This document shows, piece by piece, positions 17,360 to 33,699 of a DNA stretch of 64,000 nt (position 1 is the first letter of the stretch; the number at the start of each line of letters is the position of its first letter). Under the pieces are notes generated by a model, which did not search any database, was not told the DNA's origin, and saw nothing but the letters and a program-made list of their open reading frames with translations. This DNA comes from Opitutus terrae PB90-1. GTDB taxonomy: Bacteria; Verrucomicrobiota; Verrucomicrobiia; Opitutales; Opitutaceae. The DNA lies in the NCBI RefSeq assembly GCF_000019965.1, contig NC_010571.1, forward strand, positions 3,481,001 through 3,545,000. Direction: 5' to 3'. The translations under genes were made by a program, and so were the position numbers.

Positions 17360-20300
17360 TCAGACCCTGCGGTGTTCGCGACGGTAGCGACGGTAGATGA
17401 ACACTCCCGCGCTCATCCCCAGCAGCAGCGCGCCGTAAAACGAGGGCTCTGGGACGGGCCGGATCTGGTGATCTTCGAAGCCAGGATAGTAGTTGGTCCA
17501 CGCCGTGTTGCTGCCATCCGCCGAAAGCGGGTCACCTTCAAAGTGCACCTGGTTCTGCGGAGCTGAGCCGGTGGCGTTGAAGATCGCGCCGAGGCCGGCG
17601 CCGTTGTTCTGATGGAAGCTCGAGTTGGCGAACAGAAAGTCGACTTCGCTGCTCCAGTTGCGAACGGTCAGCGTGGCGCCTGCGGCGATGTAGATATTGG
17701 TCGCGTTCAGGACCGAGGCGGCGCCGGTGCCGAAATCGAGGATCGTGTCGGCGGTGATGTTGAGTGTGCCGACATTGATGGTGGAGGCATTGAGGAACAA
17801 AGTTCCGCCAGCGAGTTGGAGCGTGCCCAAGCTGAGGGACGAGGCGAGCGAGCCGCCCTGAAACTCGAGCGTACCATCGGTGAGCTTTACGGTGCCGGAG
17901 AAATCGAACAACCCGGTGTTCGCGGCGCTGGTGAAGGTGAACGTGCCCACGCCCAATTTTTCGAACAGCCCCGTCCCGGCCAATTGTCCGGAGAAACTAT
18001 CGGCGCCAGCATGGTTGACCCGCAGCGTGGTGCCGCTGGCGAGGCTGACCAGCCCGGCGCCGGTCAGTTCGCCGATCTGGTTCGTGTTGCCGCTGCCCGA
18101 GAGCGCGAGCGTGGCGCCGCTGGCGACGCTGACGGCGTTTGTCTGCGCGCCTAGCGTGTTGTTCGCGACCAACGCGACGGTGCCGGCCTGAACGTCGAGA
18201 CTGCCGGTGAACGTGTTGCTGCCGGAGAGCGAGAGCGTGCCGCTGTCCACTTTGGCGATACCAAGCGTGCCCGCGCCGCTGTTGCTGATTCCGCCGGTGA
18301 TGATGGTATTGCCGGCGCCGCCCACGGTGAGCGTCTGGGTCGTCGCCGCGCCAGCCGTGCCGACGACCGAGCCGAAAACGGTCAGCGTGCTCCCGGCATC
18401 GGACTTGATCGCAGCGCTGTCGGCCAGCGTGACGCGGCCCGACCAGGAATTGCCGCCGGAGACGTTGTGCAGCGCGCCGAGCGAGTTGTAGCCCGCGCCG
18501 CTCAGCACGAGATATTCGTTCGGGAACGTGATGCTGCCCGAGTTGGGCTGCAGTTCCAGCGTAGCGCCGTTGCTGACGATCGTCTGCGCCGCTTCGGAGG
18601 TGCCGTTCGCGATCTGGCCAAGCGAGTAGTCATCGCGAATCCGCAGGATGCCATTGCGTATCTCAGTCGTGCCGCTGTAGCCGGTGGTATTGTCGGACGA
18701 CAGGATCATCGTGCCGGCGCCGTCCTTGATGAACGAACCGCCATACAGGCTGGCGGAGAAATTCAGCGTGCTGCCACCCGCCACGTTGATCGTCCGCGCC
18801 GGCCCGCCGATATTGTTCAAGTGCAGCAGGCCGCTGATGGTCGATGTCGCGGCGGTCGCCACGTCGATGTCGGCGCCGGAAGTGACGCCGCCAAGCGAAA
18901 GGATGCCCTGGTTGGTGCCGACCGTGCTGACCGTGCCGCCGTTGAGCACGAGATGGCCAATCGTGTCCGCCTTGCCCCATGTTCCGAGATCGAGCGTGCC
19001 ATCGGAATTGATGGTGACGTTCACCGTATCGGCGATTTGGTCGCTGTAACGAAGCTCGACCCGCGCCGTGGACGTGGTGGAACCGGTGCCGATGACGAGG
19101 TCGCCGCGCACGGCGGTGTTGATCGTGTCGATGAATCCGCTGCCCGTATCCAAACCGCCGGGCTCGACCTGGAGCCGCAGCACGCCGCGCTCGAGCGTGG
19201 TTTGGCCCGTGTAGAAATTCCTCAAGCCGGCGAATGTGTACCGCGTCGTGTCGTCACCGCCGCGCAGCGTGACCGAACCGGTATCGCCGCTGGTGGAGCC
19301 AATCATGCTGGCGATTGCGATGTTGCCGGTGCCGGAGAGCGTGAGGTCGTGATGGTTGAGGTCGAGATGAAGAGAAGTGTGCTGAAAAAGCCACGGCGCC
19401 AGATACAGGACATCGGCCGAGCCGGCGGCGCCGGCGTTGGTGATCAGCGTGTCGGATCCGAGGCTGATGTTGCCGGACCACGTATTGATGCCGCCGAGTG
19501 CGCGCAGCGCGCCGACACCGCCGTCGCCGGTGCCGTTCAAGGCGAGCGTCTGCAGCGTGGCGGCCGTGGTGCCGTATCCGCTGGTCGCGGAACTTTGCAC
19601 CGCGAGCGTCGCGCCTGAGGCGACGCTGACCACGGTGGTCGGGCTAACCAGCCCGGAGTAGTTGCCCAAGGCTGTGAACCCGCCTTCGACCGTCGAGCCC
19701 GACGCGCGCAGCGTGCCCGCGTTGACCGTGACTCCGCCGGTGAAGCCGCTGTTGGTACCGGAGAGTGCGAGCGTGCCGGCGCCGGTCTTCACGAGGCTGC
19801 CGGAACCGGAAAGATTGCTCGAGACAGTGAGGTCGCTAGCGGCGTTGCTGGAGTTGGCGATGTCGAAGGTGCGACTCGAGCTGCCGAGCGCGAGGGTGCC
19901 GGCGCCGGCGATGGTGGCGCCTAGCGGGTTGTTGGTGGCATCGTAGCTCACGTTGCCCGCGAGCGTCAGCGTGCTGCCGCTGCCGAGGCTGACGGTGTTC
20001 GTTGAAGTGCTGGTCGCGCCGGCGCCGCCGAAGGTGAGCGACTGGATCGTCTGGCTGACCGAGTTGTTGGTGGCAAACGTGGCAGTCGTGCCGGCGGTGG
20101 TGGCGTTGACCACCACATTCGGCGTCGCGTAGGTACCGAGCGCGTTGGTGGCACCGACGGCGAACGTGCCGCGATTGACCACGACGTTGCCGCCGCTCCA
20201 GAGCGTGGCGGCGGCGTTGAGGGTCAAGGTGCCGGCGCCGACCTTGGTAAGCGTGCGGCCGGTGCCGTTGTCGGAGAGGCCGGACGTGAGCGTGATGTTG

Positions 20301-23077
20301 CCGACGCCGCCCATCGCGACGTCATTGGTGAGCAAGACCCCGCCCGCGTAAGAAACCGCCGTAGCGCTTGAGTTGGTGAGCGCACCGCTGGAGCTCACGC
20401 CGCTGCCCTGCAGGGATAGCGCCTCGGCGTTGGCGAGCGTATAGCCGTTCAAATCGAGCGCGCCACCGGCGTTGACCACGGTGCCGGCCGCGATCGTGCC
20501 GAGCGGACCGTTGCCCGCCGAGCCGGCGCTGCCGAGCTTGAGCGTGCCAAGATTGATGGTCGTGGAGCCGGTGTAGGAATTGTTGCCGGAAAGCGTGACG
20601 GCGCCGGGGCCGTTTTGCACGACCGTGCCGGAGCCGGAGATCGTGCCGGAATAAGTGAAGTCGTTGGAGCGGTTGAAGACCAGCGAGCCGTTGTTGACGA
20701 TGCTGCTGCCGGCGAGCGAACCGGTTGTGCCGCCGGCGCCCAGTTGGAGCGTGCCCTGTAAGATGGTCGTCGCGCCGGTGTAGGTGTTCGTGCCAGTCAA
20801 CGTGAAGGTGCCGGAGCCGGCCTTCGTCAGCGTGCCGGAGCCGGAGATGGTGCCGGCAAACGTCGAGGAATTGCTGGCGGCACCGACGGTGAGCGCACCG
20901 GACGTGCCGAGAGCGACGTTGCCGGTGCCGGCGAGCCGATCAATGGTCTCGGCGAAATTGTTCAGGTCGAGCAAACCGTCCCCGTTGATGGTGAACGACG
21001 TGGCGGAATCAGGGATCTGTTCGTTGGCGCCGAGCCGGAGGATCGCGCTGCTGGCGAGCCCGCTGCTGTTGCCCACGACGATCGCGCCATTGCCACCAAC
21101 CGCGCCAGTGCCGGCGGTTTTCGAGAGGAGGACGGTGCCGTCGTCGACGAGGAGATTGTTGAAATAGTTGGCGCTGCTGCCGCTGAACGTGAGCGTGCCC
21201 GCGCCGGTCTTGGTGAATCCGCCGGCGCCGTTGGCGGCACCGCTCATCACGACGTTGCCGGCACCGCCGACCGTGACGGTGTTCGCGCCGATCTGGGGAT
21301 TGCCGCTGAGCGTGAGCGTCCCGGCGTCCGCGATGATGCTGGTGTTGCCGTTGAACGTGAGCTGGCCTGCGAGCGTGTTGCTGCCAGAAATATTACGGAA
21401 CGCGCCGGTGCCGGTGTCGCCCGTGCCGTCGACGCTGAAGCCGCCCTGGTTGACCGTGATGCCGCCTTGCAGTGCGAGCGTGGCGCCCGACGCGATGCTG
21501 TGGCCCCAGGTGCCGGAGGCGCCGAGCGCGCTGCTGTTGGCGAGAACGAGCGTGCCGGCGCTGACGGTCGTCGGCGCAGAATAGGTGTTCGCGCCCTGCA
21601 GCACGAGCGTGCCGCTGCCGGCTTTCACGATCCCGCTGTAGTAGGGCTCGGTGACCACGCCGGCGAAGGTCGTGGTGCCGGTGTTGGCGACCGTGAGGGT
21701 GCGCGTGCCACCGCCGAGATTGATGCTGCCGTTGAACGTCAGGTTTTGCGTGCCGCCGATGGTGAAATCGCCGCCGATCGTGAGATTGTTCGCCAGCGTG
21801 CGCGCGGCACCGGCGGCTTGAACGGTCGTGCCGCTGGCGATCGAGAGCGTGCCGGTGCCGGCGGCGGTGTTGCTGCCGAAAGCGAGCGTGCCGGAGGAAA
21901 GCGCCGTGCCCCCGGAATACGTGTTGGCGCCGGAGAGCGTCACGGTGCCCGTGCCCGTCTTCGTCAGCAATCCGCTGCCGCTGATCACACCGCTGAAGGT
22001 GAGACTCGACGTGCCGTCGGCGTTGAAACTGGTGGCCTTGCCGAGCGTGATGCCGCCGCTGAACGTGCCGGTGCCACTGGTCAGGTTGCTGCCCAGCGTG
22101 GTGGTGCCCGTGCCTTGGTTGGCCACTGTGATCGCTCGGCCCACCGTGACGCCCGAGGTGTTGAGGAGCAGGGCGGTGTTGCTCGTGCCGGTGGCAGCGG
22201 TGTTGAGTGTCACGGCCGAGGTCGCATTGCCCAGCGAGCCGGCGGCTCCGCTCGGGGCGTTGGCGTTCAGCAGCAGCTTGCCCTGCGCGATGGTGGTGGT
22301 CCCGGAATACGTGTTCGCGCCAGACAAAGTCAGCGTGCCGTTGCCCGTTTTGATCAGGTTGCCGGCGCCGTTGCCGCCGTTGCTGATCACGCCCGAAATC
22401 GTCGCCGAGCCCGAGCCGGCGATGGTCAGAGTGCGGCCCGTGTTGTTGTTCGAAAGCGCGACGGCGCCGATCGTGCGGCTGCCGGTGCCGGAGAGCGTGA
22501 GGGTGCGGTTGCCACCGCTCACGAGCAACGTGCCGCCGGAACTGCCGAGCGCGATCGCGCCCGGGCCGTCAAGCGTCAGATTGCGATTGAGGGTTACCGC
22601 GTTGAAGAGCAGGCCGCCGGTCGCGGCATTGAACGTCTGGTTGCTGGTGCCGACTGCTACGATGCTGGAGAACGTCTGCGTCTCCGCGTCGTTGTTCACC
22701 ACGCCGGCATTCGTCAGAGTCAGCGTCGATCCACTGAACGTGAAAGCGTTGACTCCGGCGGCGGAGTTGAAGGTGACGCCCTGGACCGTGCGGGCTGCGC
22801 CGAGCGAAATCGAAAACTGGTTGTTGGCGAGGCTGGCGTCGAAGACGAGTGAATCGTTCGAACCGGGCGCCGTGTTGGGCGACCAATTGTTCGCGGTGGC
22901 CCACGCACCGGTGTTGGCGCCGCCGTCCCAGGTGATCGTGGCGGCTGGTAGGGAAAGGGCGGCAAAGGCGAATCCAAGTACGCTCAGACGAACGCCGCAC
23001 GCGAGCACACCGCGCCGTTGCCGGGCGGAAAACGGGTTCGTCAACCGACGAAGAAGCGTGGTGTGTGGCTGGCTCAC
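17360..23077 (-). CDS. Giant PEP-CTERM surface protein with autotransporter-associated beta-strand repeats
   Basis: About 1,905 residues. A signal peptide core (GVRLSVLGFAFAALSLPAA) is followed by ATITWDGG and about eleven PATR-type repeats of the form GAGTLTLSGANTYSGTTTI...GTL.LG, predicting a long right-handed beta-helix. The passenger is rich in Gly, Thr, Ser and Asn and has almost no Cys. There is no beta-barrel domain. The C-terminus is a PEP-CTERM signal: VPEPS (17441-17455), a hydrophobic span GALLLGMSAGVFIY, then an Arg-rich tail. Exosortase cleavage and surface attachment would be expected; no exosortase gene is in the window. The frame extends to a TTG at 23119, but that start abuts the regulatory element, so the GTG at 23077 is preferred. 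Neither start has a clear ribosome-binding site. Confidence 0.85.
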   Translation of the reverse strand: MSQPHTTLLRRLTNPFSARQRRGVLACGVRLSVLGFAFAALSLPAATITWDGGANTGAWATANNWSPNTAPGSNDSLVFDASLANNQFSISLGAARTVQGVTFNSAAGVNAFTFSGSTLTLTNAGVVNNDAETQTFSSIVAVGTSNQTFNAATGGLLFNAVTLNRNLTLDGPGAIALGSSGGTLLVSGGNRTLTLSGTGSRTIGAVALSNNNTGRTLTIAGSGSATISGVISNGGNGAGNLIKTGNGTLTLSGANTYSGTTTIAQGKLLLNANAPSGAAGSLGNATSAVTLNTAATGTSNTALLLNTSGVTVGRAITVANQGTGTTTLGSNLTSGTGTFSGGITLGKATSFNADGTSSLTFSGVISGSGLLTKTGTGTVTLSGANTYSGGTALSSGTLAFGSNTAAGTGTLSIASGTTVQAAGAARTLANNLTIGGDFTIGGTQNLTFNGSINLGGGTRTLTVANTGTTTFAGVVTEPYYSGIVKAGSGTLVLQGANTYSAPTTVSAGTLVLANSSALGASGTWGHSIASGATLALQGGITVNQGGFSVDGTGDTGTGAFRNISGSNTLAGQLTFNGNTSIIADAGTLTLSGNPQIGANTVTVGGAGNVVMSGAANGAGGFTKTGAGTLTFSGSSANYFNNLLVDDGTVLLSKTAGTGAVGGNGAIVVGNSSGLASSAILRLGANEQIPDSATSFTINGDGLLDLNNFAETIDRLAGTGNVALGTSGALTVGAASNSSTFAGTISGSGTLTKAGSGTFTLTGTNTYTGATTILQGTLQLGAGGTTGSLAGSSIVNNGSLVFNRSNDFTYSGTISGSGTVVQNGPGAVTLSGNNSYTGSTTINLGTLKLGSAGSAGNGPLGTIAAGTVVNAGGALDLNGYTLANAEALSLQGSGVSSSGALTNSSATAVSYAGGVLLTNDVAMGGVGNITLTSGLSDNGTGRTLTKVGAGTLTLNAAATLWSGGNVVVNRGTFAVGATNALGTYATPNVVVNATTAGTTATFATNNSVSQTIQSLTFGGAGATSTSTNTVSLGSGSTLTLAGNVSYDATNNPLGATIAGAGTLALGSSSRTFDIANSSNAASDLTVSSNLSGSGSLVKTGAGTLALSGTNSGFTGGVTVNAGTLRASGSTVEGGFTALGNYSGLVSPTTVVSVASGATLAVQSSATSGYGTTAATLQTLALNGTGDGGVGALRALGGINTWSGNISLGSDTLITNAGAAGSADVLYLAPWLFQHTSLHLDLNHHDLTLSGTGNIAIASMIGSTSGDTGSVTLRGGDDTTRYTFAGLRNFYTGQTTLERGVLRLQVEPGGLDTGSGFIDTINTAVRGDLVIGTGSTTSTARVELRYSDQIADTVNVTINSDGTLDLGTWGKADTIGHLVLNGGTVSTVGTNQGILSLGGVTSGADIDVATAATSTISGLLHLNNIGGPARTINVAGGSTLNFSASLYGGSFIKDGAGTMILSSDNTTGYSGTTEIRNGILRIRDDYSLGQIANGTSEAAQTIVSNGATLELQPNSGSITFPNEYLVLSGAGYNSLGALHNVSGGNSWSGRVTLADSAAIKSDAGSTLTVFGSVVGTAGAATTQTLTVGGAGNTIITGGISNSGAGTLGIAKVDSGTLSLSGSNTFTGSLDVQAGTVALVANNTLGAQTNAVSVASGATLALSGSGNTNQIGELTGAGLVSLASGTTLRVNHAGADSFSGQLAGTGLFEKLGVGTFTFTSAANTGLFDFSGTVKLTDGTLEFQGGSLASSLSLGTLQLAGGTLFLNASTINVGTLNITADTILDFGTGAASVLNATNIYIAAGATLTVRNWSSEVDFLFANSSFHQNNGAGLGAIFNATGSAPQNQVHFEGDPLSADGSNTAWTNYYPGFEDHQIRPVPEPSFYGALLLGMSAGVFIYRRYRREHRRV
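17855..22345 (-). repeat. Coding repeats of the PEP-CTERM surface protein
   Basis: Around eleven imperfect units of about 30-35 codons, recognisable by GTL(T/A)LSG.NTY(S/T)G..T(I/V)..GTL, are spread irregularly through the gene, separated by longer non-repeat stretches. Boundaries are approximate. Confidence 0.7.
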
Positions 23078-23120
23078 GTTGACCGCCGACAGGCAAGCGC
23101 GTGACCGGGGTAGGGTCAAT

Positions 23121-27247: not shown

Positions 27248-28543
27248 ATGGCCAAGTCTTCGCGCATGACCCTCTGCTCGTTCTGCGGGAAGTCCCAGGC
27301 CGAGGTGAAGAAGATCATCGCCGGGCCCGGCGTGTACATCTGCGATTCGTGCGTCAACGTCTGCAAGACGATCATTGATCGCGAGGTCAAAGCGCCGACC
27401 GCCGAGCCGCGGCCGCCGGTGCGGCTGATCAAGCCGTCCGAGATCAAGAAGACGCTGGACGACTTTGTGATCGGGCAGGACCATGCGAAGAAGGTTCTGT
27501 CGGTCGCCGTTTACAATCATTACAAGCGGCTGATGTTCGACTCCGGCCAGCCGGGGAAGGACTCGATGGCGCTGTCGCCGGAGTTCAACGACGTCGAGGT
27601 CGAGAAGAGTAACATCCTGCTGGTCGGGCCCACGGGTTCGGGCAAGACGCTGCTCGCGCGCACGCTGGCGCGGATCCTCGACGTGCCGTTCGCGATTTCC
27701 GACGCCACGACCCTGACCGAGGCCGGTTACGTCGGCGAGGACGTCGAGAACGTGGTGCTGCGGTTGCTGCAGAACGCGAACTACGACGTGAAGCGCGCCG
27801 AGTGCGGCATCATTTACATCGACGAGATCGACAAGATCGGGCGGAAGACGGAGAACGTCTCGATTACGCGCGACGTCTCCGGCGAAGGCGTGCAGCAGGC
27901 GCTGCTCAAAATCTTGGAAGGCACCACGTGCAACGTGCCGCCGCAGGGTGGCCGCAAGCACCCGAATCAGGAATACGTCCAGATCAACACCTCGAACATC
28001 CTGTTCGTTTGTGGTGGTGCGTTCGTCGGGCTCGACGGGATCGTTCAGCGCCGGCTCGGTCACCGCAGCCTCGGATTCTCCTCGATCCAGGCGCAGCAGG
28101 ATGCGGCCATGAAGCCCGAGCAGATGATGAAATCAATCGCGCCCGAGGACCTGATCCGCTTCGGCATGATTCCCGAGTTCATCGGCCGGCTGCCGGTCGT
28201 GTCGGTGCTCGACGAACTCTCGGTCGAGGATCTCGAGAAGGTTTTGCTGCGGACGAAGAACGCGATGGTGAAGCAGTATTCGAAGCTGTTCGCGATGGAT
28301 GGCGTGCGGCTGCGGCTCACCACCGACGCGATTCACGCCATCGCGCGCAAGGCCCTCGAACTGAAGACGGGCGCGCGCGCGCTGCGGTCGATTCTCGAGA
28401 ATCTGATGCTTGAAGTGATGTATGATCTGCCGCAGCGGGACGATGTCGCGGAAGTGACGATCGACGCGGGTGTGGTGGCGGGACGAAAGCGCCCGGCCTT
28501 GCGGCGGGTCGCGAAGCGCGAGGCCAAGCAGGACGCGGCCTGA
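27248..28543 (+). CDS. clpX: ATP-dependent Clp protease ATP-binding subunit ClpX
   Basis: A AAA+ unfoldase that feeds tagged substrates to ClpP. The 431-aa protein has an N-terminal C4 zinc finger (C10, C13, C32, C35), Walker A GPTGSGKT at residues 127-134, Walker [11 protein letters not shown], the ClpP-docking IGF-type loop represented near [10 protein letters not shown], and the sensor-2 GARALRSI. A basic C-terminal tail ([15 protein letters not shown]) follows. It closes the tig-clpP-clpX unit; a weak GC hairpin (28544-28560) without a T-run follows the stop. Confidence 0.98.
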
Positions 28544-28631
28544 GCGCGGAGTAACCGCGCGCGCTGCTGCGGGCCGGGAGGCGGGCAGAACTTTTTATGC
28601 TGGGGCGCGTCAGGCCCGGCGCCGCGACCCT

Positions 28632-29936
28632 ATGAAATTCGGACCCCTTCGCCTCGCACTCGCCTTGGGTAGCGTGGCTCTGTCGATGACCGTTCAGGCG
28701 AGTTCTGCGGCAGCTCCGGTGGCGACGCCATCGCTGGATGCTTACGCGCAGGAGGTCGAGGCGGAGTTGCGCGGCAACATCCTTCCGTTCTGGCTCGAGC
28801 ACACGCGGGATCGGGAGCGCGGCGGATTCTACGGGATGATTGACGGCGACCGGCACGTGCGCCGCGACGCGCCGCGGGGCGCGCTGTTGACGGCGCGCGT
28901 GCTGTGGACGTTCTCCGCGGCCTACCGGCACTATCATGATCCGGCGTACTTGGAGATGGCGCGCTGGGCCTTCGACGATCTTTGGGCGCGGTTTTGGGAC
29001 CAGGAACACGGCGGGCTCTACTGGCGAACGAACGCAGACGGAAAACCGCAGGACGACCGCAAGGTGGTCTACGTGCAGGCGTTCGGGATCTACGGGTTGA
29101 GCGAGTTTTATCGCGCCACCGGCGAACGCCTCGCGCTCGAACGCGCACAGCAAATTTACCGTTTGCTGGAAAAGCACAGCCACGATCGGACGAACTTCGG
29201 CTATTTCGAAGAATTCACCCGCGACTGGAAAATCTCCCGCGCGCGCGGTCCGCGGCGCAGCGCCATGGGTTCGCGGGACCAGAAATCGCAGAACGTCCAT
29301 CTGCACATCCTCGAGGCTTACACCAACCTGCTCCGTGTCTGGCCCGACGCAGGACTGAAGGCCAACTTGCGCGAGCTCATCGAAGTCATGCAGACGCGCG
29401 TACTGGACCGTTCGACCCATCACCTGCGGTTGTTCCTGAAGGAGGATTGGACGCCGGCGTCTGACGAGATCTCGTTCGGTCACGATATCGAATACAGCTG
29501 GCTGCTCGTCGAGGCCGCGGAGGTACTCGGAGACGAAGCGGTGATGCGCGAGGCAAAAGAGACCACGGTCAGGATCGCGGCGGTCACCCTCGAGCAGGGC
29601 GTCGATCCGGATGGCGGCGTGCTCGGCGAGGCGGGGCCGCACGGATTGACGAACACGTTCAAGGAATGGTGGCCGCAGGCGGAGGCGACCGTGGGATTTC
29701 TCAACGCGTATCAGCTCGGGGCCGGCGAAAAGTATCTCGCGGCGTCGCGCCACAGCTGGGAGTTCATCGAGCAGCATCTCGTGGATCACCAGAAAGGTGA
29801 GTGGCTGCATGGCGTGTCGCGCGACGGCCGGGAGAAATCCACCCACAAGGTGAGTTTTTGGAAATGCCCCTACCACAACGGCCGCGCTTGTCTGGAGCTG
29901 ATCAACCGGCTCCGCGCGCCGCGGCTGACGAACTGA
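28632..29936 (+). CDS. AGE-family epimerase, cellobiose 2-epimerase-like, with signal peptide
   Basis: The protein probably epimerises the reducing-end glucose of a beta-1,4 disaccharide (cellobiose to glucosyl-mannose) or a related sugar. It is 434 aa with an (alpha/alpha)6-barrel. The family motifs SQNVHLHILEAYTNLLRVW and FKEWWPQAEATVGF (near residue 345) carry the histidine and WPQ-AE signature. The N-terminus, KFGPLRLALALGSVALSMTVQASSAAA, looks like a cleavable signal peptide, whereas characterised cellobiose 2-epimerases are cytoplasmic. The open frame extends upstream to 28470 but that portion is not family-like. A GH9 gene follows 33 bp downstream, consistent with a shared role in beta-glucan or mannan use. 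Confidence 0.83.
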   Translation: MKFGPLRLALALGSVALSMTVQASSAAAPVATPSLDAYAQEVEAELRGNILPFWLEHTRDRERGGFYGMIDGDRHVRRDAPRGALLTARVLWTFSAAYRHYHDPAYLEMARWAFDDLWARFWDQEHGGLYWRTNADGKPQDDRKVVYVQAFGIYGLSEFYRATGERLALERAQQIYRLLEKHSHDRTNFGYFEEFTRDWKISRARGPRRSAMGSRDQKSQNVHLHILEAYTNLLRVWPDAGLKANLRELIEVMQTRVLDRSTHHLRLFLKEDWTPASDEISFGHDIEYSWLLVEAAEVLGDEAVMREAKETTVRIAAVTLEQGVDPDGGVLGEAGPHGLTNTFKEWWPQAEATVGFLNAYQLGAGEKYLAASRHSWEFIEQHLVDHQKGEWLHGVSRDGREKSTHKVSFWKCPYHNGRACLELINRLRAPRLTN

Positions 29937-29969
29937 CACCCTCTGGCCAGCATCGCTTCCAACCTCGAA

Positions 29970-32561
29970 ATGAAATACGTTCCCCTGAAATTCGCTGCCT
30001 TGTTGCTCGTCGCCGTCGTTCCCGCGAGTCGCTCAACGGCGGCGACGGAGCCGGTGCTGGTGCTCAATGACCAGGATTATCTCGAAGCGCGCGGGCTGAA
30101 CGTGATGCTGGCGCATGACTACTATCCCGAGGGACACCAAGGCGGTGTGGGCGTGATCCAGAACGGACTGCGCGTGGCGACGAATGGAGATTTGCGGCTG
30201 AGTCCGACGCCGGGCCAGTGGCAGCCAACGCCGGTCGTGGTCGGCGAACGCAAGGTGGATCGAACGCGCAACGAGATCAGCGTCCGGATGACGTATCCGG
30301 ATCCGAAGAAGAACCGCACCGGGTTCAATCCCGTCGACTATCCGGATCTCAAGCTCAGCTACGTCGTGAAAGTGCAGCCGGCACCGAACGGTTTCCGGAT
30401 CGTCGTCGATCTGGATGAGCCGTTGCCGCGCGAGTGGGTCGGCAAGGTCGGTTTCAATTTCGAGCTGTTCCCCGGCTATCTGTTCGACAAGACCTTTCAG
30501 ATCGGCGCCCGGACGGGCACGTTTCCGCGGCAGGCCGACGGGCCGGGTGGGCTGACCGACAGCGGCTACGAACTCGCGCCGCTCGGCCAGGGCGCGAAGC
30601 TGGTCGTGGCACCGGAATCCGATCGGCAGCGGATGACGATCGAAGCGGTGCGCGGCGGCGAACTCGAGCTGCTCGATGGCCGCGCGCAGCACACCAACGG
30701 CTGGTTCGTCGTGCGTGCGCTGGTGCCGGCCGGCGTCACGGCGGGGGCGATCGAGTGGCTGGTCTCTCCGCACGCGATTCCCGATTGGCTCGCGGAGCCG
30801 GTGATTCAGGTGTCGCAGGTGGGCTATCACCCGAAACAGCCGAAAGTCGCCGTGATCGAACTCGACCGAAATGACTCGCGGCGCCACCCCGTCGTGCTGT
30901 ATCGCGCCACGGGCGCTGGACTCGCGAAAGTGCGCGAGGCGGCAGCGAAAGAGTGGGGCCGGTTCCTGCGCTATCAGTATCTTCAGTTCGATTTCAGCGA
31001 TGTTACGGAGCCGGGGCTCTATGTCGTTGGCTACGGAAGCCAGCGCACGCACGCGTTCAAGATCGATGCCGACATTTTCGAGCGGCACGTCTGGCAGCCG
31101 ACGGTGGAATATTTTCTCCCGGTGCAGATGTGCCACATGCGCGTCAACGACCGCTATCGGGTCTGGCATGGGCTTTGTCACGTCGACGATGCGCTGATGG
31201 CGCCGGTGAGCCACAATCACTTCGACGGCTACCGCCAAGGTCCGTCGACGCTCACCCAATATCAGCCCGGCGAACACGTGCCGGGACTCGATCGGGGCGG
31301 CTGGCACGACGCCGGCGACTACGATCTGCGGGTCGAGTCCCAAGCCGACACCGTGCAGGGACTCGCGCTCGCCTGGGAGTTGTTCCATCCGATGCTCGAC
31401 AACACCACGATCGACCAGGAGACCCGGACGGTCGACATCCATCGGCCGGATGGGAAACCCGACGTCTTGCAGCAGATCGAACACGGCGTGATCTCGATCG
31501 TCGGTGGCTACCAGGCGATGGGTCGGCTGTACCGTGGAATTCAGGATGCGACGTTGAAGCAATACACGCACCTCGGTGATGCGGCGACGATGACGGACAA
31601 CCAGGTCTTCGCTGATCGCGATGGGCGGGCGACGAAGGTGCTGGCGGCGGCAGCAGTGACCGGCTTGCGGTCCGAACCCGTGATCGAAGGCTTGCCGCGG
31701 CTCGGCGCGCCAGGCTCAGCGGATGATCGCTGGGTTTTCACCGAGGAGAATGCGCGTCACGAACTCGCCGCCATCGCGGCGCTGGCTGCGGCGCACCGCG
31801 CGCTGAAGGGCTATAACGATCCGCTCGCCGACGATTGCTTGCGCATCGCGCGGGAGTTGTGGGGGAAGGTAAAGCCGCCGCGCACGGATCCCGACGCGGC
31901 GTTCATCCCGCAGGCGGCCGGCTATCCGTTGATGCGGCTCGAAGCGGCGATCGAACTCCTGCAGAGCACTGGAGACCGGAGCTACGCGGACGCGATCATC
32001 GAACTCGGGGACGAAATCGTGGCGCACGTCGACCGCGTGGGCTGGCTCGGAGCGCGTTCGCTCGCGCTGGTGCAGGATGCGGCGTACCACGCGAAAATCC
32101 GGCAGGCGCTGCAGGAATTTCGTACCAAGATCGACGCACTCGAGAAAGAGACACCGTACGGGCTGCCCTATCGGCCGCGAATCTGGGGCGCGGGCTGGGA
32201 AGTGCAGCGATTCGGCGTGGAGCAGTATTTTCTACACCGCGGCGCGCCGGACATCTTCCCGCGCGATTACATGCTGCACGCAATCAACTTCATCCTTGGC
32301 GTGCATCCCGGATCGAACACCGCGTCCTTCGTGTCCGGCGTCGGCGCGAAATCCGTCACCACGGCCTATGGCGTGAATCGCGGCGATTGGTCCTACATTC
32401 CGGGCGGCGTCGCGTCAGGCACGGCGTTGATCCGGCCGGATTTCCCGGAGTTGCTCGAGTGGCCGTTCCTGTGGCAGCAAACCGAATACTGCCTCGGCCA
32501 TCCGACCTCGGACTACGTGCTCTTGATTCTCGCGGCGAACGATCTGTTGAACAAAAAATAA
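29970..32561 (+). CDS. GH9 family glycoside hydrolase (endoglucanase/exoglucosidase-like), secreted
   Basis: Hydrolyses beta-1,4-glucan or related chains by inversion. The 863-aa protein has a signal peptide (about residues 1-25), then an unusually long N-terminal beta-rich region (30-270). A CelD-N-like Ig domain beginning IQVSQVGYHPKQPKVAVIE is followed by the (alpha/alpha)6 GH9 catalytic domain. The catalytic-base motif WHDAGDYDL contains D447 and D450; E839 in WQQTEYCLG is the likely proton donor. The NRGDWSYIPGG segment takes the place of the usual histidine-containing signature near the C-terminus, so it may belong to a divergent GH9 branch. The gene is paired with the epimerase upstream. 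Confidence 0.85.
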   Translation: MKYVPLKFAALLLVAVVPASRSTAATEPVLVLNDQDYLEARGLNVMLAHDYYPEGHQGGVGVIQNGLRVATNGDLRLSPTPGQWQPTPVVVGERKVDRTRNEISVRMTYPDPKKNRTGFNPVDYPDLKLSYVVKVQPAPNGFRIVVDLDEPLPREWVGKVGFNFELFPGYLFDKTFQIGARTGTFPRQADGPGGLTDSGYELAPLGQGAKLVVAPESDRQRMTIEAVRGGELELLDGRAQHTNGWFVVRALVPAGVTAGAIEWLVSPHAIPDWLAEPVIQVSQVGYHPKQPKVAVIELDRNDSRRHPVVLYRATGAGLAKVREAAAKEWGRFLRYQYLQFDFSDVTEPGLYVVGYGSQRTHAFKIDADIFERHVWQPTVEYFLPVQMCHMRVNDRYRVWHGLCHVDDALMAPVSHNHFDGYRQGPSTLTQYQPGEHVPGLDRGGWHDAGDYDLRVESQADTVQGLALAWELFHPMLDNTTIDQETRTVDIHRPDGKPDVLQQIEHGVISIVGGYQAMGRLYRGIQDATLKQYTHLGDAATMTDNQVFADRDGRATKVLAAAAVTGLRSEPVIEGLPRLGAPGSADDRWVFTEENARHELAAIAALAAAHRALKGYNDPLADDCLRIARELWGKVKPPRTDPDAAFIPQAAGYPLMRLEAAIELLQSTGDRSYADAIIELGDEIVAHVDRVGWLGARSLALVQDAAYHAKIRQALQEFRTKIDALEKETPYGLPYRPRIWGAGWEVQRFGVEQYFLHRGAPDIFPRDYMLHAINFILGVHPGSNTASFVSGVGAKSVTTAYGVNRGDWSYIPGGVASGTALIRPDFPELLEWPFLWQQTEYCLGHPTSDYVLLILAANDLLNKK

Positions 32562-32584
32562 CGGCTGCCTGAGAAGGCAGCCGT
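32553..32584 (-). terminator. Terminator between convergent GH9 and M42 peptidase genes
   Basis: A perfect 10-bp stem, ACGGCTGCCT/AGGCAGCCGT, with GAGA loop (32561-32584). Read on the minus strand it is followed by TTATTTTTTG, a good terminator for the peptidase gene. On the plus strand it immediately follows the GH9 stop but lacks a T-run. Confidence 0.85.
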
Positions 32585-32611
32585 AGGCAAACGGAGAGCA
32601 ATCCCCGCGGT

Positions 32612-32629
32612 GGCCGAGATTACTCGGCC
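32612..32629. repeat. Hairpin touching the stop of the M42 peptidase gene
   Basis: A 7-bp perfect stem, GGCCGAG/CTCGGCC, with an ATTA loop whose last base is part of the peptidase stop codon. It may be a transcript-stabilising stem or an auxiliary terminator. Confidence 0.5.
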
Positions 32630-33699
32630 TACCAGTTGAACGATTCGCGCGGGCCGATCATCTGGGCGAACTCGACCAGCAACTGCACGCAGCGCTCCAC
32701 GTCCTCGAGATCGACGACCTCGCTGGGCGTGTGCATGTAGCGGAGCGGAATGCTGACCAGCCCGGTGGCGACGCCGCCGCGGCCCATCTGGATCGCGCGG
32801 GCATCCGTGCCGGTCGGACGCGGATCGGCTTCGAACTGGTGCGGGATCTTCACCCTTTTCGCGGCAGCGAGGAGCTTTTGGTAGACCTTCGGATTGATGT
32901 TCGCCCCCCGGCAAAGAATCGGACCACCGCCGAGCGTCGTTTCGCCGAATTTCCGATGGTCACAATCCGGATGGTCGGTCGCATGGCCGACATCGATCGC
33001 GATCGCGACGTGCGGGTTCACCGCGTAGGCGGCCGTGGTGGCGCCCCGCACGCCGATCTCCTCCTGCGAGGTGCCGACCGCGACGACCTTCGCCGCGAGC
33101 TTTTTGTTCGCCTTGGCCAGTCGGATCAGCGTTTCGCCGACGATGTAGGCGCCGACCTTGTTGTCGAACGCCCGCGCGGCGCCGATGCTGCCGTTAATCA
33201 ACTCGAGTTCGTGATCGTAGGTGGCGACATCTCCGATGGCGACTCGCTCGAGCGCTTCAGCTTTCGAGCGAACGCCGATATCGATCCAGATCTCATGCCG
33301 TTTCGGTACCTTCTTGCGATCCTCCTCGTCCATGAGATGGATCGCGCGCTTGCCGGTGACCCCCTTGACGATTCCGTTCGCGGTTTGGATCACCACGCGC
33401 CGGCCCGAAATGACGCTGAGGTCATGGCCGCCGATCGTGTCGAAATAGAGGAAGCCATCCTTGTTGATGTAGGTGATGATGAGCCCGAGCTCGTCGAGAT
33501 GGCCGGCGAGCATGAGCACCGGGTCGCCTTTCGGATTCAGCGTGGCGCGGCGATTGCCGAGCGCGTCGTTCTCGTAGGCATCGGCTGCAGGTTTGACGTA
33601 GCGATCGAAGACCGCGTGCGCCTCGGTTTCGTAGCCGGACGGGGAACGAGCGTGGAGCAGCGCGGAGAGGAAGGGCGGGACGGTGTAAGGTTTCGGCAT
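32629..33699 (-). CDS. M42-family metalloaminopeptidase (tetrahedral aminopeptidase-like)
   Basis: A cytoplasmic dinuclear metal aminopeptidase of the M42 (FrvX/YsdC/TET) family, some members of which were once mis-annotated as endoglucanases. It has 356 residues. Metal and catalytic positions are visible: H67 and D69 in AGHLDELG, the bridging D179 in ARAFDNKVG, the glutamate pair in SQEEIGVRG, an aspartate in AIDVGHATD and a histidine in RYMHTPSEVV. It is transcribed alone, between a convergent GH9 gene and the divergent hisA, and ends at a clear terminator. Its role is probably turnover of peptides released by proteases such as ClpXP or FtsH, though that is inference. Confidence 0.93.
   Translation of the reverse strand: MPKPYTVPPFLSALLHARSPSGYETEAHAVFDRYVKPAADAYENDALGNRRATLNPKGDPVLMLAGHLDELGLIITYINKDGFLYFDTIGGHDLSVISGRRVVIQTANGIVKGVTGKRAIHLMDEEDRKKVPKRHEIWIDIGVRSKAEALERVAIGDVATYDHELELINGSIGAARAFDNKVGAYIVGETLIRLAKANKKLAAKVVAVGTSQEEIGVRGATTAAYAVNPHVAIAIDVGHATDHPDCDHRKFGETTLGGGPILCRGANINPKVYQKLLAAAKRVKIPHQFEADPRPTGTDARAIQMGRGGVATGLVSIPLRYMHTPSEVVDLEDVERCVQLLVEFAQMIGPRESFNW

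Follow-up and report, generated by a model that had tools for sequence, protein, structure and literature searches.

A predicted exported cellobiose 2-epimerase-type protein and its glycoside hydrolase partners in Opitutus terrae and related Opitutaceae

As far as the available parts of the sources go, the cellobiose 2-epimerase (CE) step is placed in the cytoplasm, where it prepares mannobiose for phosphorolysis (PMC6643232), and the epimerase is described together with mannoside phosphorylases (PMC8579813, PMC6385246). Exported proteins of glycoside hydrolase family 130 (GH130), such as BT3780, are given as hydrolases and not phosphorylases in the accessible portion of the report on them (PMC4599007), and the excerpts at hand from two further papers reflect an applied interest of the CE field in lactose conversion (PMC13281645, PMC12006067). 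Here, we analysed a stretch of 64,000 nucleotides from Opitutus terrae PB90-1 (contig NC_010571.1, positions 3,481,001 to 3,545,000; hereafter the window), in which a gene for a CE-type protein with a predicted signal segment is followed by a gene for a GH9 protein. Searches of open-licence literature, a partial collection without the main papers on CEs of aerobic bacteria, turned up no exported CE, and an earlier report is possible.

The CE open reading frame occupies positions 28632-29936 of the plus strand (ATG at 28632, stop codon ending at 29936, 434 amino acids) and the GH9 frame positions 29970-32561 of the same strand (ATG at 29970, stop codon ending at 32561, 863 amino acids), with a spacing of 33 bp (29937-29969). 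The two frames lie exactly as the original prediction had placed them, an epimerase-like gene with a signal followed 33 bp on by a GH9 gene with a signal of its own. Comparison with related genomes suggests that the window CE belongs to a clade of exported CEs which appears to be a real, conserved variant of a known enzyme route.

The product of the CE gene (28632..29936, plus strand) is a CE-type protein predicted to be exported and to fold as an (alpha/alpha)6 barrel, as judged from Pfam, NCBIfam and PDB matches and an AlphaFold2 model. It matched PF07221, the AGE/GlcNAc 2-epimerase family, with 129.4 bits (cut-off 23.4), and NF041848, the EpiA cellobiose 2-epimerase family, with 360.3 bits; the latter score is below the equivalog cut-off of 800, so that the protein is not classed as an EpiA equivalog. 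The best solved structure by sequence was the CE of Rhodothermus marinus (RmCE; 372 bits). The model had a mean predicted local distance difference test score (pLDDT) of 91.3, and superposition on RmCE with mannobiose gave a Z score of 62.9 and a root mean square deviation of 1.5 over 399 residues, from model residue 31 on. With VIA-align, the ten top structure matches were all CEs (Z 57.9-62.9).

The catalytic residues were assigned by alignment with RmCE and with a set of 128 CEs comprising 28 exported proteins, 30 cytosolic-type proteins of this order and 70 others, from which the distant AGE-family proteins L044-L047 were left out. The result showed that three catalytic histidines are present and invariant in 128/128 sequences: His225 (29304..29306, plus strand), which corresponds to RmCE residue 200 and is the third histidine, equivalent by motif to His184 of Ruminococcus albus CE (RaCE); His284 (29481..29492 on the plus strand together with Glu287, the pair corresponding to RmCE His259 and Glu262, both invariant among the aligned CEs); and His415 (29874..29876, plus strand), which corresponds to the acid/base residue RmCE His390. 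Trp347 and Trp410 align with RmCE residues 322 and 385. All six of these residues, together with Asn221, are conserved in the 28 exported-clade proteins. According to the accessible parts of the literature, RmCE His259 and His390 have catalytic roles (PMC5726027) and the catalytic histidines of RaCE are His184, His243 and His374 (PMC13281645). Judged from its conserved residues, the window CE should work as a CE-type epimerase.

The original prediction had also called the signal peptide of the CE convincing. A Sec signal segment was predicted at residues 1-23, MKFGPLRLALALGSVALSMTVQA (28632..28700, plus strand; approximate cleavage site), by a rule-based call that leaders in relatives support: the n-region has a charge of +2, the hydrophobic window a mean of 2.2, and VQA stands at residues 21-23. 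In the model, residues 1-16 mostly have a pLDDT below 50, and the leading CE structure matches start at residue 29-37, past the leader, indicating that the leader lies outside the CE fold. The rule also passed 1/6 cytosolic controls (an M42 peptidase, hydrophobicity 1.8) and 161/2000 shuffles of the CE N-terminus. Given these false positives, one single call means little, and the weight rests on the relatives. Every exported-clade locus whose N-terminus is readable (29/29) passes the rule with a hydrophobicity of at least 1.9, and 2/100 cytosolic-type CEs (L128 and L213) pass it, in each case only through an N-terminal extension that exceeds 60 codons. These extensions are implausible, and the two proteins were not given the leader label on the tree described below. 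By length, the CEs of Opitutaceae form two classes, one of about 434-462 amino acids with a hydrophobic leader and one of about 400-413 amino acids, the shorter ones mostly beginning 3-12 residues ahead of the domain.

Two gene fusions in relatives bear directly on the question of compartment. In genome G013, a complete single frame of 1,218 amino acids has the order leader-CE-GH9; it contains no separate GH9 leader, and its GH9 half starts right at the sequence that comes after the leader in free GH9s. The same leader-CE-GH9 arrangement was found in G036, up to the contig end. As the GH9 half of the fusions has no signal of its own, both halves would depend on the CE leader for export. The two fusions thus settle, as far as sequence can, where the CE would be located, and they also bear out the originally proposed link between the CE and the GH9. 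In a further genome, G417, the leader could be read, the CE is truncated by the contig end, and another contig opens with a GH9 at the mature sequence, so that this may be a third CE-GH9 fusion. Among CEs of other lineages, two different fusions were observed: a leaderless, apparently cytosolic CE joined to an entire GH3-type protein (1165 amino acids; L141:9977-13471, from a Lentimicrobiaceae metagenome-assembled genome (MAG)), and a CE-type domain with a phosphotriesterase-family (PTE) domain (712 amino acids; L118:9965-12100, from an Anaerolineales MAG), which could be an assembly error.

The alternative that translation begins at codon 19, an in-frame ATG at 28686..28688 (plus strand) and the nearest one giving a leaderless and hence cytoplasmic protein, was weighed against these data. 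Such a start codon exists, and no clear ribosome-binding site precedes either codon 1 or codon 19. Nevertheless, a start at codon 19 is highly improbable, since hydrophobic leaders are present in 29/29 readable exported-clade loci, the cytosolic CEs of the family mostly begin close to the domain, at the 3-12 residues mentioned above, and the GH9 half of the fusions would stay inside the cell. Such a start would contradict the clade-wide leaders and the fusions, and the 29 leaders, their single patch on the tree and the two fusions support the signal peptide originally described. We infer that the window CE would be exported by the Sec pathway. Tat (twin-arginine translocation) export and a lipoprotein were considered and rejected, as the leader has neither a twin arginine nor a lipobox.

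A tree was built from 74 of the 128 CEs, with those from outside Opitutaceae thinned to every fourth and with proteins shorter than 380 amino acids, proteins cut by contig edges and L044-L047 left out. On this tree the leader label needs 1 change, versus a mean of about 22 when labels are shuffled, and the exported Opitutaceae CEs form one patch adjoining the shorter cytosolic paralogue, suggesting that the exported CEs are likely to have arisen once. Both forms are present in at least 7 genomes, including that of the window, whose cytosolic paralogue (G000:C1:2976790-2978007) has no leader. Beyond Opitutaceae, the survey sampled the nearest relatives (the best 80 out of at least 580), and every sampled CE with a readable N-terminus was cytosolic by the rule, except for the L128 artefact. 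Apparent leaders in Flavobacterium and other CEs were rejected: the tblastn alignments, which seemed to begin at query residue 4-5, had run through an upstream in-frame stop, and the re-anchored starts lie near the domain and give leaderless proteins. Among distant AGE-family proteins (about 28-36% identity), predicted leaders were found in L044-L047, L282-L286 and L288, within the family, the order and the phylum, which would make these a second group of exported epimerase-like proteins; export inside the wider AGE superfamily is thus, by predicted leaders, not unique to the exported CE clade.

The genomic partners of the two CE forms were then compared; the neighbour counts are minimum values, several loci being cut by contig ends. 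Within 5 kb of the cytosolic Opitutaceae CEs, a GH130 mannosylglucose phosphorylase was found in 20/29 loci, and neither GH5 nor GH9 in any of the 29 (0/29 each). Within 5 kb of the exported CEs, the window included, the counts were 0/31 for GH130, 15/31 for GH5 and 4/31 for GH9. A partner swap between the cytosolic and exported CEs, of GH130 for GH5/GH9, is thus well supported by gene neighbourhoods. The GH5 also lies directly upstream of both fusions. Its nearest solved structures are 1vjz, an endoglucanase (282 bits), and 3w0k, a bifunctional endomannanase/endoglucanase (220 bits); a twin-arginine-like leader is seen in the sequences of L188 and L196. The window's genome, a single contig of 5,957,605 bp, has its own GH5 copy (G000:C1:143029-144120, 70% identical).

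Co-occurrence was examined in 252 genomes of the family, with counts uncorrected for shared ancestry. In 2 of the 31 genomes with an exported CE (G450 and G487) the CE N-terminus is cut off, and sequence identity and a GH5 neighbour, in place of a visible leader, placed them in the exported group. This GH9 is present in 28/31 genomes with an exported CE versus 8/221 others, which by genus corresponds to 12/12 versus 2/37, and the GH5 (at least 60% identity) in 23/31 versus 2/221. In genera g19 and g20 the GH9 is present and the exported CE is not, indicating that the GH9 is not strictly dependent on the exported CE. Elsewhere in Opitutaceae the GH9s stand apart from the CE, and twice they adjoin a Tat-leader-type protein. 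These two proteins (L228:7033-9246 and L230:5577-7790) are related, one of them was typed GHL6 + GH42M, and they could be a further partner.

The finding that GH9 genes seldom neighbour exported CE genes also bears on the possibility that the CE and the GH9 are exported side by side without functional coupling, their adjacency being accidental, at the level of the genus, among housekeeping genes. The pair sits between clpP-clpX and an M42 peptidase gene, and the genus's second genome retains these flanking genes, so that the pair represents one inherited event there; this and the 4/31 adjoining loci speak for an accident. Against it stand the two fusions in other genera, the GH5 beside both of them and the genome-level co-occurrence in 28/31, and we regard the absence of coupling as improbable. 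The survey proposed in the original prediction, for leader-bearing epimerases next to GH9 genes, did find them, with the GH9 within 5 kb, although in those 4/31 loci only.

The leading explanation, although evenly balanced in our estimation, is that the exported CE and secreted beta-1,4-glycanases, namely the adjacent GH9 and a GH5 whose gene lies elsewhere in this genome, would constitute a route of epimerase plus hydrolases on the far side of the cytoplasmic membrane, most likely for mannan- or glucomannan-type oligosaccharides. The exported CE would in this reading be a paralogue of the usual cytosolic CE that has become specialised. In such a route, the exported GH5 would cut mannan/glucomannan-type (or beta-glucan) chains to oligosaccharides, the exported CE would interconvert mannose and glucose at their reducing ends, and the GH9 would then hydrolyse the edited oligosaccharides, in parallel with the intracellular epimerase-plus-phosphorylase (GH130) route. 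From the equilibrium between the mannose and glucose epimers, a net flow toward glucose is expected. We infer the substrate, the direction and order of the reactions and the enzyme activities of this route from sequence data. A phosphorylase would gain little outside the cytoplasm, far from cytosolic phosphate and from the pathways that use its sugar phosphate, and this would account for GH130 having been lost and hydrolases gained. A more specific version is put forward tentatively and with some doubt: an exported 2-epimerase, sometimes fused to a hydrolase, would rewrite the end sugar of an oligosaccharide so that the GH9 can cut it, giving a phosphate-independent counterpart of the CE-GH130 route, with its origin in a duplication followed by export and a change of partner.

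Several points weigh against the proposed extracytoplasmic route. The leader calls come from a crude home-made rule and not from SignalP, and the branch uniting the exported CEs has a support of 66% in the Shimodaira–Hasegawa-like approximate likelihood ratio test (SH-aLRT). The GH9 adjoins the CE in the 4/31 exported loci noted above and is elsewhere unlinked in the same genome. The co-occurrence counts ignore phylogeny, and among the 50 CE-bearing genomes the GH9 link is much weaker (28/31 versus 7/19, p ~1e-4); 8 genomes with the GH9 lack an exported CE, and 3 with an exported CE lack the GH9. The known GH9 enzymes are beta-glucan hydrolases, and cleavage of mannose-containing products is hypothetical. 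Finally, the substrate range of the exported clade may have shifted, because the [RS]LSxxD motif near a catalytic histidine has been lost.

This motif belongs to a loop that covers residues 205-217 of the window CE (29244..29282, plus strand; placed by alignment, with low pLDDT at 205-214). It is present in 0/28 exported CEs, 28/30 cytosolic-type CEs of this order and 58/70 other CEs, and Phe269 is mostly replaced by Leu or Met in the exported clade. These changes, with the catalytic residues kept, leave room for the other sugar allowed for in the original prediction and would fit a clade that is a CE only by origin and has changed its specificity, to longer or branched glucomannan oligosaccharides or to free monosaccharides; AGE-family monosaccharide enzymes do exist, for example the glucose 2-epimerases among the structure matches of the model. 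The fold, all catalytic residues and the position on the CE tree are, however, retained, and 12/70 other CEs also have no [RS]LSxxD motif, which makes a change of this extent unlikely.

Cellobiose, the substrate suggested in the original prediction, is not supported by the present data: the nearest solved relatives of the GH5 include a bifunctional endomannanase/endoglucanase, and the cytosolic CE of the same genome stands in a mannobiose-phosphorolysis locus. In this locus of about 10 kb (G000:C1:2975147-2985194; L033, L269), the cytosolic CE is accompanied by the GH130 mannosylglucose phosphorylase, two GH94 proteins, one typed and one assigned by similarity, and a second GH130. Its gene content indicates that it is the known intracellular route of mannobiose phosphorolysis. 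In all, two GH26 and three GH130 matches were found in the genome, favouring mannan or glucomannan, and mannan- or glucomannan-type oligosaccharides appear at least as likely a substrate of the exported CE as cellobiose; cello-oligosaccharides are a possible substrate. A cellobiose-based scheme would have the exported CE make Glc-beta-1,4-Man (glucosyl-mannose) outside the cell from cellobiose or cello-oligosaccharides freed by the GH9 and GH5. It would agree with partners whose nearest relatives are endoglucanases and with the acceptance of cellobiose and mannobiose alike by CE-family enzymes, as stated in the part of the source at hand (PMC5726027). On the other hand, both the organism and the locus of its cytosolic CE are equipped for mannobiose and mannan (GH130, GH26), and the glucose-to-mannose product would need turning back inside the cell; we consider this scheme rather unlikely. 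The benefit it would bring would be relief of product inhibition or a disaccharide unusable by competitors, followed by import and phosphorolysis.

The GH9 protein (29970..32561, plus strand; 863 amino acids) is a divergent GH9 glycoside hydrolase, identified by PF00759 and CelD_N and by profile matches to GH9 structures, namely endoglucanases and BoGH9A. Its predicted signal segment, MKYVPLKFAALLLVAVVPASRS (29970..30035, plus strand; approximate site), was called by the same rule with a hydrophobicity of 3.27. The following N-terminal region, about residues 25-272 (30042..30785, plus strand), has no family match: these roughly 250 residues matched neither a Pfam family at E 0.1 nor a PDB sequence at E 1. 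It is followed by the CelD_N Ig-like domain at residues 276-357 (30795..31040, plus strand; Pfam, 39.7 bits, cut-off 24.6) and the catalytic domain at residues 393-798 (31146..32363, plus strand; PF00759, 59.6 bits, cut-off 27.7). The DAGD of GGWHDAGD (31308..31319, plus strand) contains Asp447 and Asp450, the predicted water-activating pair; it is invariant in 18/18 GH9s, and in the profile it aligns with GWHDAGDY of CelD and others. Glu839 (32484..32486, plus strand) is a candidate proton donor by its invariance in 18/18 GH9s and its C-terminal position only, and lies outside the aligned range of the GH9 structure profiles and of the hhalign comparison with a canonical GH9 encoded in this genome. 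A second divergent GH9 with an N-terminal extension was found in this genome (G000:C1:2723401-2725914; L057, L263), about 38% identical to the window GH9.

Past the GH9 stop codon, a hairpin at 32561..32584 (strand not assigned) is terminator-like for the facing minus-strand gene, by consensus match only. A promoter between the CE and the GH9 was sought and rejected, as there was no sigma-70-like site in 28400-32700, the consensus being uninformative in this phylum. Elsewhere in the window, positions 17360-23119 of the minus strand encode a 1919-amino-acid repeat-rich protein with autotransporter-type repeats and a C-terminal VPEPSFYGALLLG...RRYRREHRR segment, which we take to resemble a PEP-CTERM sorting signal.

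If the proposed route is correct, sugars would be epimerised during polysaccharide digestion outside the cytoplasm, the clade would be a case of a metabolic route re-partnered after a change of compartment, and it could supply naturally secreted epimerases as well as fusions of epimerase and hydrolase. In comparison with RmCE (3wkf/3wkg/9l8i), the window CE has the same fold and all catalytic residues, with 47% identity in the structural alignment; it differs in an additional N-terminal leader of about 30 residues, the absence of [RS]LSxxD and exported hydrolases as genomic partners. The GH9 resembles GH9 endoglucanases with CelD_N (CelD 1clc, 3x17 and BoGH9A 6dht) in its catalytic domain, the GWHDAGD motif and CelD_N by Pfam, but its profile similarity to them is weak, and it has the N-terminal extra region of about 250 residues and a divergent C-terminal active-site region. 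In the intracellular CE-GH130 route of the Bacteroides fragilis and Ruminococcus albus type, as represented in the available parts of three papers (PMC6643232, PMC6385246, PMC8579813), an epimerase likewise feeds an enzyme that breaks glycosidic bonds. The window's genome carries one such route with its second, cytosolic CE, whereas the window CE has a predicted leader and GH9/GH5 hydrolases instead of GH130 nearby. Exported GH130 hydrolases such as BT3780 provide, in the accessible portion of the source (PMC4599007), a parallel in which export of a member of the phosphorolysis route goes with replacement of phosphorolysis by hydrolysis; there, however, the GH130 itself changed its chemistry, whereas here the epimerase would have changed its partner.

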